DNA of 64,000 nucleotides from Arthrobacter sp. C9C5. GTDB taxonomy: Bacteria > Actinomycetota > Actinomycetes > Actinomycetales > Micrococcaceae. Below are positions 7,176-15,931 of the stretch, one piece after another. Location of the stretch: positions 124,001 through 188,000 of the forward strand of contig NZ_JABFMX010000003.1 in NCBI RefSeq assembly GCF_013359735.1, read 5' to 3'. The notes below the pieces were generated by a model. The model was given only the letters and a program-made list of their open reading frames with translations. It was not told the DNA's origin and searched no databases. The translations under genes and the position numbers were made by a program. Each line of letters opens with the position of its first letter. Within the stretch, counting starts at the first letter, position 1.

Positions 7176-8285
7176 ATGCAACTGTACGACTTGCTAGCCT
7201 GTGTTCTGCTCGCCGAAGGCGGGATCCTCGGTGGCGGACTGAGCCTGATTCTTGGCCATGCGGCGTTCCAGCAGCTTCGGGCTGCGCGGCTGCGGCCTGG
7301 AATGCGGGCAAACATGCAAACTTTGGCCCGGGTCCTGGCCGGCGCCCCGGACCGTCCGGCCCTTGCCAGGCTTCCGCTGGACAAGGCGATCGAAGTAGTG
7401 GCCGAAGCGACGCGCAGCGTCGACGATGCTGGCCGGGCGCGGCTGGCGGAACTACCCGTCTACGCGGCGCTCACGGAGCGCGCGGCCCGGTGGTGCACCA
7501 GCACGCGTTGGCACCGCCGGCTCAAGGGCGTCCGGCTGCTGGTGATCCTGGGCGCCGGCCAGGACGCCGTCCCCCCGCTGCTGGAGGACCCCCGCGCCGA
7601 AGTGCGCAGCGCGGCCGCTGCCTGGGCAGCGAACCAGCCGAGCCCGCAGATCGCCACCCGGCTGGTCCGCATGCTGAGCGACGAGGCCCTCGCCTGCCGG
7701 CTGACCGCCCACCGCACCCTTGTCCGGATGGGCCTCCACGCAGTGCCCGCCATCATAAGCCACATGACCGAAGAGTCCCCGGCATCGCTGGCCACGGCGC
7801 TCCTTGTGGCGTCCCGCGTCCACGACTCCTCGCTGATGGGACCGGCGTTGGCGCACCGGAACCACAGCGATCCTGAGGTTCGGGCCGCCGTCGCGCAGGT
7901 GATCGCCTCCGGCGGCGGGACCGACGGCGTCGAAGGGCTGGAAGGTTTCCTGACTGACCCCGCCCCTGCCGTACGGGCCACAGCCGCGGCCGGCCTCGGC
8001 GGACTGGGCCACTGGCCCAGCTCGCCCCTGCTGGCCGAACTGCTGGGGGATCCGGCCTGGGAAGTCCGCCGCGCGGCCGGTCTTGCGCTCGACCGGCTCG
8101 GCGGCCCGGGTCAGCTGTACCTTCAGCGGGCACTTCATAGCACGGACCGGTTCGCGCAGGACATGGCCCGGCAGGTGCTGGACCGCGGCGGGACTGGGAC
8201 CGGCACGGAAAGCGGGACCGGGACCGGGACCGGGACCGGGACCACATTGGCAGTTTTCGCAACGAACGGCAAAGAGCGCAGATGA
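7176..8285 (+). CDS. Membrane-anchored HEAT-repeat protein
   Basis: A 369-residue protein with one N-terminal hydrophobic segment (about 5-30), then a long alpha-solenoid of HEAT-like helix pairs (about 100-345). Repeats such as DPRAEVRSAAAAWAA, DPEVRAAVAQVIAS, DPAPAVRATAAAGLG and DPAWEVRRAAGLALDRL are clear. HEAT solenoids are protein-binding scaffolds. The C-terminus has a Gly-Thr stretch encoded by GGGACC repeats. The gene sits 1 nt after the Hpt-receiver gene and its stop overlaps the GT2 start (ATGA). I infer a scaffold that couples the phosphorelay to the glycosyltransferase at the membrane. No enzymatic motif is seen. Confidence 0.85.
   Translation: MQLYDLLACVLLAEGGILGGGLSLILGHAAFQQLRAARLRPGMRANMQTLARVLAGAPDRPALARLPLDKAIEVVAEATRSVDDAGRARLAELPVYAALTERAARWCTSTRWHRRLKGVRLLVILGAGQDAVPPLLEDPRAEVRSAAAAWAANQPSPQIATRLVRMLSDEALACRLTAHRTLVRMGLHAVPAIISHMTEESPASLATALLVASRVHDSSLMGPALAHRNHSDPEVRAAVAQVIASGGGTDGVEGLEGFLTDPAPAVRATAAAGLGGLGHWPSSPLLAELLGDPAWEVRRAAGLALDRLGGPGQLYLQRALHSTDRFAQDMARQVLDRGGTGTGTESGTGTGTGTGTTLAVFATNGKERR
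8214..8243 (+). repeat. Hexanucleotide tandem repeat (GGGACC)5
   Basis: Five perfect GGGACC copies inside the 3' end of the HEAT gene, preceded by diverged copies from about 8189. Each unit encodes Gly-Thr, so copy-number changes keep the frame and only alter the length of a flexible tail. Confidence 0.9.
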
Positions 8286-12033: not shown

Positions 12034-12053
12034 GCGTCTCCCTCCCCCACCGA

Positions 12054-12103
12054 TTGCTCCGTAACGGCCCTTTCGAGCCCTCAAAAGGGCCGTTACGGAG
12101 CAA
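12054..12103. terminator. Long palindrome, 20-bp perfect stem
   Basis: The left arm TTGCTCCGTAACGGCCCTTT (12054-12073) pairs exactly with 12084-12103 around a 10-nt loop. It lies 20 bp past the peptidase stop and fits a terminator without a T-tract. Its outer arms, TTGCTCCGTA and TACGGAGCAA, recur near 16.5 and 36.9 kb. Confidence 0.8.
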
Positions 12104-12146
12104 ACGACGGAATATCCAGCCGGACGTATACCCAAATTTGATCATC

Positions 12147-12237: not shown

Positions 12238-13005
12238 GTGAGTACTGAACAAGCTATGAGTGGGCTGTCCGACGAGGAACTGATGGCCGAGGGCGCCACC
12301 GCCCTGCCGGACAAGGAAGTTGCCTCGGTCCTGGATCTGAACGCCGACCTGAACCTGGGCATCGAGGCCGCCGCGCCGATCGACCTCGGCGTCGCAGCCA
12401 ACGCCAACGTTGCCGCCCCGATTGATGCGGCGGCTTCGGCCAACGTCCTCTCGTTCGGTTCCGAGTCCCAGGCTCTCGCCGACCAGGGCACCATCATCAA
12501 CCAGGGCGTCACGGGTGATGCCACGGCAGACTCCACCCAGGACAGCGTCCTTGACCAGGGCAACGCCACCGACGCCGGGACCACGGCTGATCCGGCTGCT
12601 GCGCCCGCCGCCACGGATCCGGCCGCCGCCGACCTCGCCGCCGGGGTGGACGCCGGTGCTGTCCCAGCCGACGCTACGGGCGGAATCCTGCCCGACGGCA
12701 CGGCCCCGGACCTGGGCGACGCGACGGATGTGGCCGGGACCGCCGGCGCCGCAGGCGCCTTGAACGGCAACCTGCTCAACGTCGACGTGAACCTGGACGC
12801 CAATGCAGGCATTGCAGCCCCCATCAACGGCGCGGTGGCCGCCAACGCCAACGTAGCCGCGCCGATCGACGCTGCCGTCGGCGCCAACATCGGCTCGATC
12901 GACAGCAACGCGTTCGCCGTCGCCCAGCAGGATGCCATCATCAACCAGGACATCCATGGCGATGCCACGGCTTCGGCCGATCAGCAGTCCGACCTGAAGC
13001 AGTAG
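12238..13005 (+). CDS. Two-repeat, Ala/Asn/Asp-rich protein with leader-like N-terminus
   Basis: A 255-residue acidic protein of unknown function. There is no signal peptide, membrane segment or Cys. The N-terminus contains LSDEELMAEG and ALPDKEVASVL (about residues 11-32), which resembles leader regions of actinobacterial ribosomal peptides; that is inference. Two repeats of about 67 residues (about 35-101 and 180-247) share N-x-D-x-NL, VAANANVAAPIDAA, IINQ and GDATA, separated by an Ala/Pro/Thr/Asp-rich spacer. GTG start with GGAG 9 nt upstream. The stop is 7 nt before the PqqD-M50 protease gene, so the two form an operon and this protein may be its substrate. Another reading is a structural surface or wall protein. 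Confidence 0.75.
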   Translation: MSTEQAMSGLSDEELMAEGATALPDKEVASVLDLNADLNLGIEAAAPIDLGVAANANVAAPIDAAASANVLSFGSESQALADQGTIINQGVTGDATADSTQDSVLDQGNATDAGTTADPAAAPAATDPAAADLAAGVDAGAVPADATGGILPDGTAPDLGDATDVAGTAGAAGALNGNLLNVDVNLDANAGIAAPINGAVAANANVAAPIDAAVGANIGSIDSNAFAVAQQDAIINQDIHGDATASADQQSDLKQ

Positions 13006-13012
13006 AACCTAG

Positions 13013-15460
13013 ATGAGCACTGTTCACGGAGGGCCGTCCGAGCAGGACGGCCCTCCGGCCCTGTCTGCTGCTCGCAGCGCAGCCGCCGGCGCGGCTGCCG
13101 GCAACCCGGCGTCGTCCGCGGCTGCCGGCACCCTGCCGCCCCCGGCGCTGGCCGACGGCGTCCAGCTGATCGGCGAGACCAAGGGCTCGGGCTACAAGCA
13201 GGCCCCGTCGCTGGTCCGGCGTGCCGACGGCCAGACGATCCAGCTGACACGCCTGCTCTACTTGGTGCTTGAGGCCATCGACGGCCGCCGCAGCCTGGAG
13301 GAGATCGCGCAGCACGCCGGCAGCGCCTACGGCAAGCCAGTCAATGCGGGAAACGTCCACACGCTGATCGACTCCCAACTGCTCCCCCTGGGCCTACTCC
13401 GGCTGGCCGACGGCTCGCAACCCGAAGTCAAGAAGTCCAACCCGCTCCTGGGCATGCGCTTCCGTTACTCCGTGACGGACCCGGAACGCACGCGGAAACT
13501 CACCGCGCCGTTCGCCACACTCTTCAACCCGCTGATCGTCGTGGCCGTGACCGCCGCCTTCCTAGCGACCTGCTGGTGGGTGCTGATGGTCAAGGGGCTC
13601 GCCTCCGCCACCCATGAGGCCTTTGCCAATCCGGGTCTGGTGCTGCTGATCCTGCTGGTCACGGTGCTGTCAGCCGGCTTCCACGAATTCGGGCATGCCG
13701 CCGCGGCCCGCCGCGGCGGGGCCACGCCGGGCGCCATGGGCACCGGCCTGTACCTGATGTGGCCGGCGTTCTACACCGACGTCACGGATTCGTACCGGCT
13801 GGGCCGCCCCGGCCGGATCCGCACCGACCTGGGCGGCCTGTACTTCAACGCGATCGTGGCCGTGGCCATCATGGGTGTCTGGTGGGCCACCGGCTTCGAC
13901 GCGCTGCTGCTGGTGGTGGTCACCCAGATCCTGCAGATGGTCCGGCAGCTGATGCCGATGGTCCGCTTCGACGGCTACCACATCCTCGCCGACGCCACCG
14001 GAGTCCCGGACCTCTTCCAGCGGATCAAACCGACCCTGCTGGCCCTGGTCCCCTGGCGCAAGACAGATCCCGAGGCCCAGCTCCTCAAGCCCTGGGCCCG
14101 GGCCGTGGTCACCGTTTGGGTGCTCATCACCGTGCCCTTGCTGCTCTTCAGCATGGTCACCATGGTGCTTACCCTGCCGCGGATCCTCGGCACCGCTTGG
14201 GACAACGGTTGGAAGCAGCAGGCCATGCTCTCGCACAGCGCCGCCTCGGGCGACTTTGTCGATGCTGCCGTGCGGGTGCTTGCGATCATCTGCATTGCGC
14301 TGCCGGTCCTGGGCATCTTTTATATCCTGCTGCGCCTGGGGCGGCAGTTCGTGACCGGCCTCTGGAAGCGGACCCGCGGCAAGGCGCTGCAGCGCGGCGT
14401 CGCCATGGCCGCCATCGCAGCTGTCACAGCGGGCCTCGCCTGGGCCTGGTGGCCGGGCGCCGAGAGCTACCGCCCGGTCCAGCCCTACGAACGCGGCACC
14501 CTCAGCGACATCACCACGGCTGTATTTCCCGCCGCCTCGACCAAGGGGATGAAGGAGGGCCAGGCCGGCCGTACCGTGGCGCTCTGGCCTGCCGGTGCGA
14601 AGAAGCCCACCCGCGAGGACCCGCAGCTGAGCATGGTGCTGGTACCCCGGGAAGGGTCTGCCCCGGCCGGCGGATCCGGCAACACCACGGCTGCGCCGTC
14701 CTGGGTGTTCCCCTTCGACAAGCCGGCCGCGCCCGAAGAGGGCGGCAACCAGTCGCTGGCGGTTAACACCACAGACGGCTCGGTGGTCTACGACGTCGCC
14801 TTCGCGCTGGTCTGGGCCGAGGACGGGGACGACGTCCGGAACCGGAACGAAGCCTACGCCTACGCCAGCTGCAAGGACTGCGCCGCGGTCGCGGTGGGCT
14901 TCCAGGTAGTGCTGATTGTGGGGCAGGCGGACGTAGTCGTGCCGGAGAACCTCTCGGCCGCAGCCAACTACAACTGCCTCCGGTGCCTCACCTACGCCCT
15001 GGCCAGCCAGTTGGTCCTCACACTGGACGGGCCGCTGAGCCCGGACGGAATGTCCAGGCTCAACGCGCTGTGGCAGCAGATCGCGGAGTACGCCCGGAAC
15101 CTGCAGAACGTCCCGCTCTCCGAGATCCAGGGCAAATTGAGCGGATTCAAGGAACAGATCATGGAGATCGTCCGAACGGACCCCAGCGCCACCCCGGGCG
15201 GTGCCGGGACGCCGACGGCGCCGGCAACGGCTCCGGCAACGGCTCCGCCGGGGGCCACCCCCGGGGCCACACCGTCGCCGTCGCCAGGCACCACGGACCA
15301 GCCCACCCCGGGTGGAACCGTCGCACCCGCGCCGGACGCCACGCTCGCCCCGGAGCCCAGCCAGCCTGTGGAAAGCGCCACCGAGCCGGCCACTGCGCCG
15401 GGTCCCGCCGAGGACACCGCCTCGCCGGCCACGACGACGTCGGCTCCGCCGGCCCCATAG
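13013..15460 (+). CDS. PqqD-like domain fused to M50 membrane zinc metalloprotease
   Basis: An 815-residue protein. After a disordered Ala-rich N-terminus comes a PqqD-like winged helix (about 66-130, with LEAIDGRRSLEEIA), the fold that binds leader peptides of ribosomal peptides. A multi-helix membrane domain (about 165-480) carries the zinc motif HEFGH (224-228) and a distal Asp320 in RFDGYH, as in site-2-type M50 proteases. An extracytoplasmic domain follows with CKDC (620-623) and a second CxxC (NYNCLRC, near 655-658), then a Pro/Thr-rich tail. It is co-transcribed with the leader-like protein just upstream. I infer that the PqqD domain captures that protein and the M50 domain cleaves or exports it. 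Related Actinobacteria genes are annotated only as putative peptide zinc metalloproteases. Confidence 0.85.
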   Translation: MSTVHGGPSEQDGPPALSAARSAAAGAAAGNPASSAAAGTLPPPALADGVQLIGETKGSGYKQAPSLVRRADGQTIQLTRLLYLVLEAIDGRRSLEEIAQHAGSAYGKPVNAGNVHTLIDSQLLPLGLLRLADGSQPEVKKSNPLLGMRFRYSVTDPERTRKLTAPFATLFNPLIVVAVTAAFLATCWWVLMVKGLASATHEAFANPGLVLLILLVTVLSAGFHEFGHAAAARRGGATPGAMGTGLYLMWPAFYTDVTDSYRLGRPGRIRTDLGGLYFNAIVAVAIMGVWWATGFDALLLVVVTQILQMVRQLMPMVRFDGYHILADATGVPDLFQRIKPTLLALVPWRKTDPEAQLLKPWARAVVTVWVLITVPLLLFSMVTMVLTLPRILGTAWDNGWKQQAMLSHSAASGDFVDAAVRVLAIICIALPVLGIFYILLRLGRQFVTGLWKRTRGKALQRGVAMAAIAAVTAGLAWAWWPGAESYRPVQPYERGTLSDITTAVFPAASTKGMKEGQAGRTVALWPAGAKKPTREDPQLSMVLVPREGSAPAGGSGNTTAAPSWVFPFDKPAAPEEGGNQSLAVNTTDGSVVYDVAFALVWAEDGDDVRNRNEAYAYASCKDCAAVAVGFQVVLIVGQADVVVPENLSAAANYNCLRCLTYALASQLVLTLDGPLSPDGMSRLNALWQQIAEYARNLQNVPLSEIQGKLSGFKEQIMEIVRTDPSATPGGAGTPTAPATAPATAPPGATPGATPSPSPGTTDQPTPGGTVAPAPDATLAPEPSQPVESATEPATAPGPAEDTASPATTTSAPPAP

Positions 15461-15931
15461 TCCGCCGTCGGGAGTTGTCGGCCGCCGTTCCACCGCCCCG
15501 CCCGCACCGTAGGGTCCGGGGCCTTATCCGAAGCTGCCGGCGGTGCCGGAGCGGGGCCCCGGGACTGCAGGCCAGGGCGGGGCGCTGTGCACGTGTCCGT
15601 TTGCCGAAGATGGCCGCTATGGAACTCTCATAGCGGCCATCTTTGGCAATTCACCGAGGTCGTGGCATCTCCGCCGACGTCCGCCACGTTCCAGAGGACG
15701 CGCCGCGGGCCGCCGCTGCGGACCTCCTGGCTGGACAGTCTCAGCGGGACGTCAGGCGTGTGATGCCTACCGTGTTGTGGCGCTCCAGCCCAGTTAGCCG
15801 CTGCCTGAACCCTGGATGTCGGGTGGAAACCGGGAGATTCCGGGCCCTGGCGGCGCCAAAGCAGGCTGCGCACCGGGGCAACCGGGCAGGAACGTACGCC
15901 TCAGGCCCGCGCCCCCGTCCCCCGCGGGCAC
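15461..15931. other. Intergenic gap, 471 bp, one palindrome
   Basis: No convincing gene on either strand between the convergent M50 and GNAT genes. Short open frames here have arginine- and proline-rich shadow composition and no ribosome-binding site. The only clear structure is the palindrome at 15601-15649. Confidence 0.6.
15601..15649. terminator. Palindrome between convergent genes
   Basis: Arms TTGCCGAAGATGGCCGCTAT (15601-15620) and 15630-15649 pair with one mismatch around a 9-nt loop. It is placed to end transcription from both sides, though 140 bp past the M50 stop. The ATGGCCGCTA core returns at 46791. Confidence 0.65.

Follow-up and report, generated by a model that had tools for sequence, protein, structure and literature searches.

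The 64,000-nucleotide stretch of Arthrobacter sp. C9C5 analyzed here (contig NZ_JABFMX010000003.1, positions 124,001 to 188,000; hereafter the window) carries two forward-strand genes, at 12238-13005 and 13013-15460, which encode an acidic precursor protein and a membrane protease and probably form a leader-guided protease cassette. A sequence-only reading had singled out this pair as a leader-like repeat protein beside a PqqD-type domain fused to an M50 protease with HEFGH and D320, and both open reading frames (ORFs) lie 7 nt apart as it described. Their parts are given below, where RRE is the RiPP recognition element (RiPP, ribosomally synthesized and posttranslationally modified peptide) and AF2 an AlphaFold2 model:

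12238..13005, + strand: precursor ("repeat protein"), 255 amino acids, GTG start (ORF; alignment of 18 sequences)
12238..12339, + strand: leader, residues ~1-34, its end inferred from the alignment of 18 sequences
12337..12558, + strand: core unit 1, residues ~34-107 (alignment; repeat also at the nucleotide level)
12559..12771, + strand: variable Ala/Asp/Gly-rich linker, residues ~108-178 (alignment of 18 sequences)
12772..13002, + strand: core unit 2, residues ~179-255 (alignment; the two-copy cores match tandem mini-precursor cores)
13013..15460, + strand: RRE-M50-CxxC protease, 815 amino acids (ORF, NCBIfam, AF2)
13160..13387, + strand: RRE/PqqD-like domain, residues ~50-125, three strands then three helices (NCBIfam, AF2, alignment)
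13481..14047, + strand: M50 site-2-protease core, residues ~157-345 (NCBIfam, AF2, alignment)
13682..13696, + strand: HEFGH zinc motif, residues 224-228 (sequence, alignment)
13970..13972, + strand: D320, second catalytic motif (sequence, alignment)
14693..15187, + strand: CxxC...CxxC domain, residues ~561-725 (C620, C623, C655, C658), probably extracytoplasmic (alignments, hydropathy)

The precursor begins with a constant region. Across the 18 aligned sequences the N-terminus follows the pattern L...EL.......LP.KEV.S..D, and ten positions (L10, E14, L15, L23, P24, K26, E27, V28, S30, and D33) are invariant in 18/18, which bears out the earlier impression of a leader; the window's own leader is EELMAEGATALPDKE. 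Behind this single leader, a unit of ~75 amino acids is present twice, an arrangement that had been overlooked. The window precursor ends in LKQ and contains no Cys, 2 Lys/Arg, and 37 Asp/Glu, and its cores are weakly hydrophobic (best 19-residue mean, 1.17; grand average of hydropathy, GRAVY, ~0.2). No signal peptide could be seen by eye, as had been claimed, and a Pfam/NCBIfam scan of the precursor found no family up to an E value of 1. Among its relatives, the L054 and L060 precursors (loci are numbered L, genomes G) have long repetitive linkers, and both of these and the mycobacterial precursors carry C-terminal tails.

The repeat becomes intelligible in nine genomes outside the window's class (G001, G006, G036, G124, G130, G167, G178, G184, and G236), where the precursor matches are short ORFs, mostly in tandem and mostly of 64 to 75 amino acids, each made of a leader and one core; G130 additionally has a 180-amino-acid ORF with two core copies. 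The protease adjoins these mini-precursors in 7/9 of the genomes. Profile comparison of the mini-precursors with the window family gave a probability of 99.1 (E = 1.2e-18), and the tandem cores matched the two-copy cores at E = 5.3e-25, with none of 100 column shuffles scoring as high. On this evidence, the "repeat protein" consists of a single leader followed by two cores: the repeat noted earlier is real, but its units resemble the cores that separate mini-precursors carry singly.

The second gene joins a predicted leader-binding domain to a membrane protease. In keeping with an M50 site-2 protease, it has an HExxH motif, a downstream Asp, and helices in the AF2 model, and the H, E, and H of HEFGH and D320 are invariant in 22/22 aligned homologs. 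NF041824, the daptide metalloprotease model, matches residues 62-341 with a score of 107.4 bits (E = 8.8e-31) against a cut-off of 300, and eight relatives of the protease score 73-109 bits against the same cut-off. The second-closest NCBIfam model, NF058609 (YydH/LiaK), scores 34.3 bits against a cut-off of 225, and Pfam PF02163 (M50) scores 10 bits against 27.2; both window proteins stay below all Pfam and NCBIfam cut-offs. Single-family searches pick up the putative leader-binding domain only weakly (TIGR03859, PqqD, E = 0.061; ApyI RiPP-binding, E = 0.0042). The AF2 model (mean predicted local distance difference test score [pLDDT], 59.5, higher in the core) places three strands and then three helices at residues 51-123 (block pLDDT, 60-90), followed by the membrane core, and the modeled order is that of an RRE as described in PMC12710340. 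The earlier proposal of an RRE-like domain fused to an M50 protease is supported. A Foldseek search of the model against PDB returned chance matches only (best E, 0.29), and a PDB sequence search with the precursor and protease alignments gave nothing useful.

The C-terminal part of the protease, which the sequence-only reading overlooked, contains two CxxC pairs whose four Cys are invariant in 19/19 (both alignments). Seven hydrophobic segments precede this domain, with overlaps merged and 271-317 taken as two helices according to AF2, and the loop at 441-461, with 7 Lys/Arg and no acidic residue, suggests that the C-terminus lies outside. As a separate observation, the protease frame shifts in L030:6001-8213 (Arthrobacter sp. 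OVS8), either as a real change or as a sequencing error.

The two genes are consistently found side by side. The precursor gene lies just upstream of the protease in 66/67 close-relative loci, at -2 to 137 nt from the matched protease region, and the same 9/149 genomes of the window's family carry both the close protease and the precursor. It had been proposed that a repeat gene missing beside most protease homologs would refute the two-gene system; we made that comparison, and for close homologs these two counts give the opposite result. Pairing is retained where the orientation is divergent (L102 and L103), and two leader peptides lie side by side in a later independent case, G309 (L185). 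Linear plasmids carry the cassette too: L217 (Streptomyces sp. NBC_00557) and L216 (S. changanensis) both have leader peptides, and L217 also has a CxxC gene; L217 and L213 are one and the same place, which was counted once. RefSeq labels the two plasmid relatives that we examined "hypothetical protein," and text searches of the literature, whose coverage excludes subscription papers and supplements, showed no description of the gene pair among the results listed.

More distant homologs changed our view of which part of the precursor is constant. Ten second-tier loci of a 296-genome phylum sample (protease matches at 272-376 bits) all have an upstream leader peptide, judged by eye (10/10), and the cores behind it are of several kinds: short and hydrophobic, chaplin-like, rich in Arg/Gly/Pro, or rich in Ala/Ser/Gln. 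In the genus of G182, which we take to be Streptomyces since L213 coincides with a stretch of a named Streptomyces plasmid (L217), a second-tier protease is found in 22/199 genomes, at 29 places, and all 28 new loci have at least one leader peptide, again by eye (28/28); 20 of these loci have an A-type leader (LLP[GS]REALG) and 8 a G-type leader, mostly LPER or LPPR, with a Gly/Ser-rich or Cys-bearing core. Further, third-tier protease matches lie at 59-124 bits.

As a control on the judgment by eye, we relied on a profile hidden Markov model (HMM) built from 92 leaders of close relatives (tier 1) only and run against the 3,358 frames of 30 amino acids or more that six-frame translation gave for the 38 second-tier loci (10 + 28). 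Its first 57 matches were all leader-peptide frames, in 36/38 loci, and the first nonleader frame came at rank 58 with an E value of 1.7; some of these frames were identified by matching their coordinates to the peptides picked by eye. The L152 leader peptide ranks later (E = 5), and that of L153 is not listed. Seven later loci of the window's family (330-349 bits, one 318) each have 1-4 leader peptides (7/7), and the first 16 matches of the profile in that set were such peptides; L218 has one leader peptide (best E, 0.34), and the best E in L219 is 2. The profile took the place of a leader regular expression, which also picked up the protease's own LLPWR stretch and was left unused; a looser version had a high background (106 in 575 kb), missed the visible L062 and L145 peptides, and hit an unrelated ORF at L057.

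A leader and core next to an RRE protease were thus seen, as genes only, in three sets of loci, and the actinobacterial classes in which one kind of leader precedes differing cores number at least three, among them those of the window and of G237. The leader, and not the repeat, is the constant feature. The expected co-occurrence of repeat protein and protease therefore stands for close homologs, but distant homologs lack the repeat protein and have a peptide with a related leader instead.

The CxxC domain provides a further link between these loci. Among the nine tandem-type loci, a separate CxxC gene is present in five (L099 and L102-L105), where its product starts with a signal-peptide-like or hydrophobic segment by eye, and none was seen in the available stretches of L100, L101, L106, and L107. 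In Streptomyces, 17/20 A-type loci, plus L147, have a CxxC frame that is not part of the protease frame, and the CxxC profile found 0/8 in G-type loci and 0/9 in other second-tier loci; only ~1.5 kb of flank was available for the 28 Streptomyces loci, so these absences are weak. The later set has a separate CxxC gene in 6/7 loci, and L220 begins near a contig end. By this comparison, the CxxC protein is a recurrent third component, fused to the protease in the window and separate elsewhere. The minimal two-gene system proposed earlier holds as to its strict pairing, but it does not strictly have two parts, because the CxxC domain that is fused here is a protein of its own in many loci.

The profile matches also hint at a relationship between the core and the CxxC domain, and at their possible joint assembly. 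In the second-tier and tandem loci, every weaker match of the CxxC HMM (E, 0.006 to 1) was a precursor peptide, and in the later set so were all matches between E values of 0.05 and 1. Composition may have contributed to these matches, since filters were off, and we therefore used composition-keeping column shuffles. The CxxC profile scored 29.2 against the tandem core versus at most 23.5 in 200 shuffles, and 21.9 against the two-copy cores versus 16.4 in 100; against Streptomyces A-type cores it was not significant (4/100 shuffles as high). Behind the separate CxxC gene, we also noted a lipoprotein-like gene with no Pfam match (L104:5666-6442, -; L102:5961-6764, -; L099:4997-5842, +).

Some loci also hold a small conserved protein (KVIN...I...NAxxxANVGE...S.QR.VQR) that lacks a leader, has a core-like segment, and adjoins the peptides or the protease; Pfam gave no match for the L101 copy and a chance-level match for the L154 copy, which adjoins a protease without leader peptides. 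The copies are as follows:

L101:1804-2064, + strand: leaderless small protein
L103:8607-8897, - strand: leaderless small protein
L104:9828-10055, - strand: leaderless small protein
L154:8263-8520, - strand: leaderless small protein

In the window, the gene pair looks like its own transcription unit, because a hairpin stands on either side of it. Both hairpins are long, near-perfect, and without T-tracts, and they are possible bidirectional terminators (MFE, minimum free energy):

12051..12106, no strand: very stable hairpin, probable boundary to prolyl oligopeptidase (27-nt arms, 93% complementary; MFE -41.6 kcal/mol, z -8.9)
15601..15649, no strand: very stable hairpin 3' of the pair (21-nt arms, 95% complementary; MFE -40 kcal/mol, z -9.4)

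The six flanking ORFs that were scanned encode a HEAT-repeat protein, a GT2 glycosyltransferase, a prolyl oligopeptidase, a GNAT protein, AckA, and Pta. None is a transporter gene, and none is a lanthipeptide, radical SAM, or ABC gene, in line with the earlier claim that no lantibiotic, radical SAM, or ABC gene is adjacent. Relatives of prolyl oligopeptidase, GNAT, and AckA occur in 39/67, 24/67, and 31/67 of the close-relative loci. Within the available flanks, they occur in 0/11 of the loci outside Arthrobacter-type genomes (Mycobacterium-type, Nocardioidaceae, Terrabacter, Kribbella, and Intrasporangium records) and in 0/33 further loci (16 + 10 + 7); GT2 sits too far out for these flanks. 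Since the pair persists without these neighbors, it is the pair that is conserved and not the neighborhood. The HEAT-repeat protein (window 7176-8285) ends in a Gly-Thr repeat tail (GTGTESGTGTG...) that is possibly length-variable.

The closest precedent is the daptides, through their RRE-fused site-2 protease, which removes the leader in daptide biosynthesis (PMC10036551). The daptide-defining features that we tested are absent: the window protease reaches 107 of the 300 bits needed for MpaP/NF041824, its precursor has another leader motif than ELExMEAP and lacks the invariant C-terminal Thr, and no oxidative decarboxylase, aminotransferase, methyltransferase, or DUF-RRE is found among the six flanking ORFs. 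Conversely, the window has an extra CxxC domain and a two-core, 255-amino-acid precursor. The epipeptide proteases EpeP/YydH and LiaK (NF058609) are alike in using an M50 protease for a small precursor, but the window protease reaches 34.3 of 225 bits and no radical SAM gene is among the six flanking ORFs. EpeP is thought to do both cutting and export, and TglG/TmoG of the pearlin pathway are membrane M50 proteases that act on a carrier peptide (PMC10885120). By description only, TglG/TmoG resemble what is proposed here, a membrane M50 protease acting on a peptide; they differ in that they free a C-terminal amino acid from the substrate peptide.

A second comparison is with chaplins. Three second-tier cores noticed by eye, those of L148-L150, can be aligned with 25 chaplin segments, both Cys included, and score 26.1 versus at most 16.8 in 200 shuffles. 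One of these second-tier peptides (L150) matches PF03777 at E = 0.015 and 15.5 bits against a cut-off of 21, and we do not count this as proof because weak PF03777 matches also arise in the window's genome and in the E. coli and Caulobacter controls. Chaplins are Sec-exported. The window precursor has no Cys and no PF03777 match. We rejected the idea that window-type cores are chaplins (31/200 shuffles as high for tandem cores, 45/100 for Streptomyces A-type cores). The L148-L150 core is not clearly like the tandem core (2/100 shuffles as high), and Streptomyces A-type and tandem cores share a weak likeness (20.9 versus 17.1, 0/100 shuffles). The logic itself has a precedent in daptides, which combine RRE-fused site-2 proteases with short precursors. 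Novel here are a CxxC partner that is either fused or separate, a precursor with two cores, and the occurrence of one kind of leader with different cores across three or more classes.

We consider it likely that these genes form a leader-guided cassette in which the RRE reads the leader, the M50 core cuts it, and the cores end up outside and assemble with the CxxC domain. Comparison of the sequences shows the constant leader, the pairing, the conserved catalytic residues, the variable cores, and the recurrent third component. That the protease reads and removes the leader is the most likely part of the interpretation; we infer it from homology with the daptide protease. The cytoplasmic RRE-like domain would bind the conserved leader, and the site-2-protease core would cut it off near the LPx(K/R)E boundary. 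The product would consist of at least one core unit rich in Ala, Asn, Asp, and Gln; in the window two such units share a chain without Cys, and elsewhere they come from separate mini-ORFs. The later steps are speculative, namely the export route, assembly with the CxxC domain, and surface function: once across the membrane, the core units would form strand-rich surface material on the CxxC domain or together with it. That domain is part of the protease in the window and is a separate, probably secreted protein in other lineages. It is tempting to go further and imagine a Sec-independent route to extracellular strand-rich (amyloid- or chaplin-like) material, with the protease as reader, cutter, and gate, the CxxC domain or separate CxxC protein as an evolutionarily related subunit that nucleates or anchors the assembling cores, and the leader as an exchangeable address for many unrelated cores. 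We regard this extension as tentative and more doubtful than not.

Several points weigh against the cassette as proposed. The weakest step is the exit of a ~220-residue acidic product from the cell, for which a protease-gated route has a precedent only as a proposal, that for EpeP. The core is too weakly hydrophobic for a usual intramembrane-protease substrate, a product of that size and charge would not easily pass through such a protease, the AF2 model of the precursor is poor (pLDDT, 47) and too poor for a fold search, and the outside placement of the CxxC domain is not certain because hydropathy flags residues 618-644 within it, where AF2 has a strand. The likeness of core to CxxC domain and of core to chaplin is modest (hhalign probability, 14-78%), and the CxxC HMM matches may owe something to shared Ala/Asn composition. 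In the leader-profile test, only 14/57 matches have an E value below 0.01, and the others count by rank alone. As to pairing, the protease of L057 (Mycolicibacterium pyrenivorans), the one exception among the 67 loci, has no precursor in its genome at E = 0.01; its frame lacks residues usually conserved ahead of IGEMAGSGY, and with both absences it looks like a decayed locus. In G167 the protease and the peptides are on different contigs, and G006 has peptides without a listed protease match. The phylum sample has 17 genomes with a precursor, the extra one being G006, on a 5.6-kb contig, and all 16 genomes with a protease match of at least 459 bits have one; this 16/16 is biased, as 12 genomes besides the window contributed rows to the search alignment, only G008, G074, and G167 are independent members, and the threshold was chosen after the list was seen. 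The counts that we hold independent of this circularity are 66/67 and 9/149.

Other readings of the pair start from the same protease. It could belong to an unrecognized RiPP pathway in which enzymes nearby or elsewhere first modify the core and the protease then removes the leader, yielding a natural product instead of a structural one. The daptide proteases do remove leaders (PMC10036551), several tandem cores have a terminal Thr like daptide precursors, second-tier cores include short hydrophobic and Cys-containing peptides, GT2 and GNAT genes lie near the window pair, and a methyltransferase (PF13649, PF08241; L151:3443-4132, +) lies ~0.6 kb downstream of a second-tier protease. However, the C-terminal Thr is not invariant and is absent from the window precursor, no GNAT relative accompanies the pair in the available flanks once Arthrobacter-type genomes are left, and the ten second-tier neighbors sampled by Pfam scan gave that one methyltransferase and otherwise regulators, an SLH domain, AHSA1, or no match. 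We therefore judge such a pathway unlikely, though it is the most credible of these alternatives.

A regulatory circuit seems very improbable to us. M50 site-2 proteases are classically agents of regulated intramembrane proteolysis, and LuxR-type or response-regulator genes adjoin or lie near the proteases of L146 (9722-10414, -), L152 (9272-9919, +), and L153 (1265-2020, -), so the precursor could be a membrane-associated regulator from which cleavage frees a signaling fragment. Yet the precursor shows no regulatory domain in Pfam/NCBIfam up to E = 1 and no strong hydrophobic segment, and the peptides are often several ORFs with variable cores. Equally hard to credit is that the protease merely degrades the peptide or that the genes simply travel together: patchy carriage (9/149 family genomes) makes co-inheritance possible, but the pairing survives divergent orientation (L102 and L103), different classes, two plasmids, and a change of core while the related leader is kept.

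RRE domains are handles for peptide modification. In the proposed cassette, an RRE-like domain instead sits on an intramembrane protease and is paired with exchangeable cargo behind one kind of leader; such pairs span three or more actinobacterial classes, and many include a CxxC partner. If the proposed reading is true, the cassette would offer a small, testable model of the way site-2 proteases deal with secreted products, and leader reading would act as a general signal by which small surface proteins are sorted and released.

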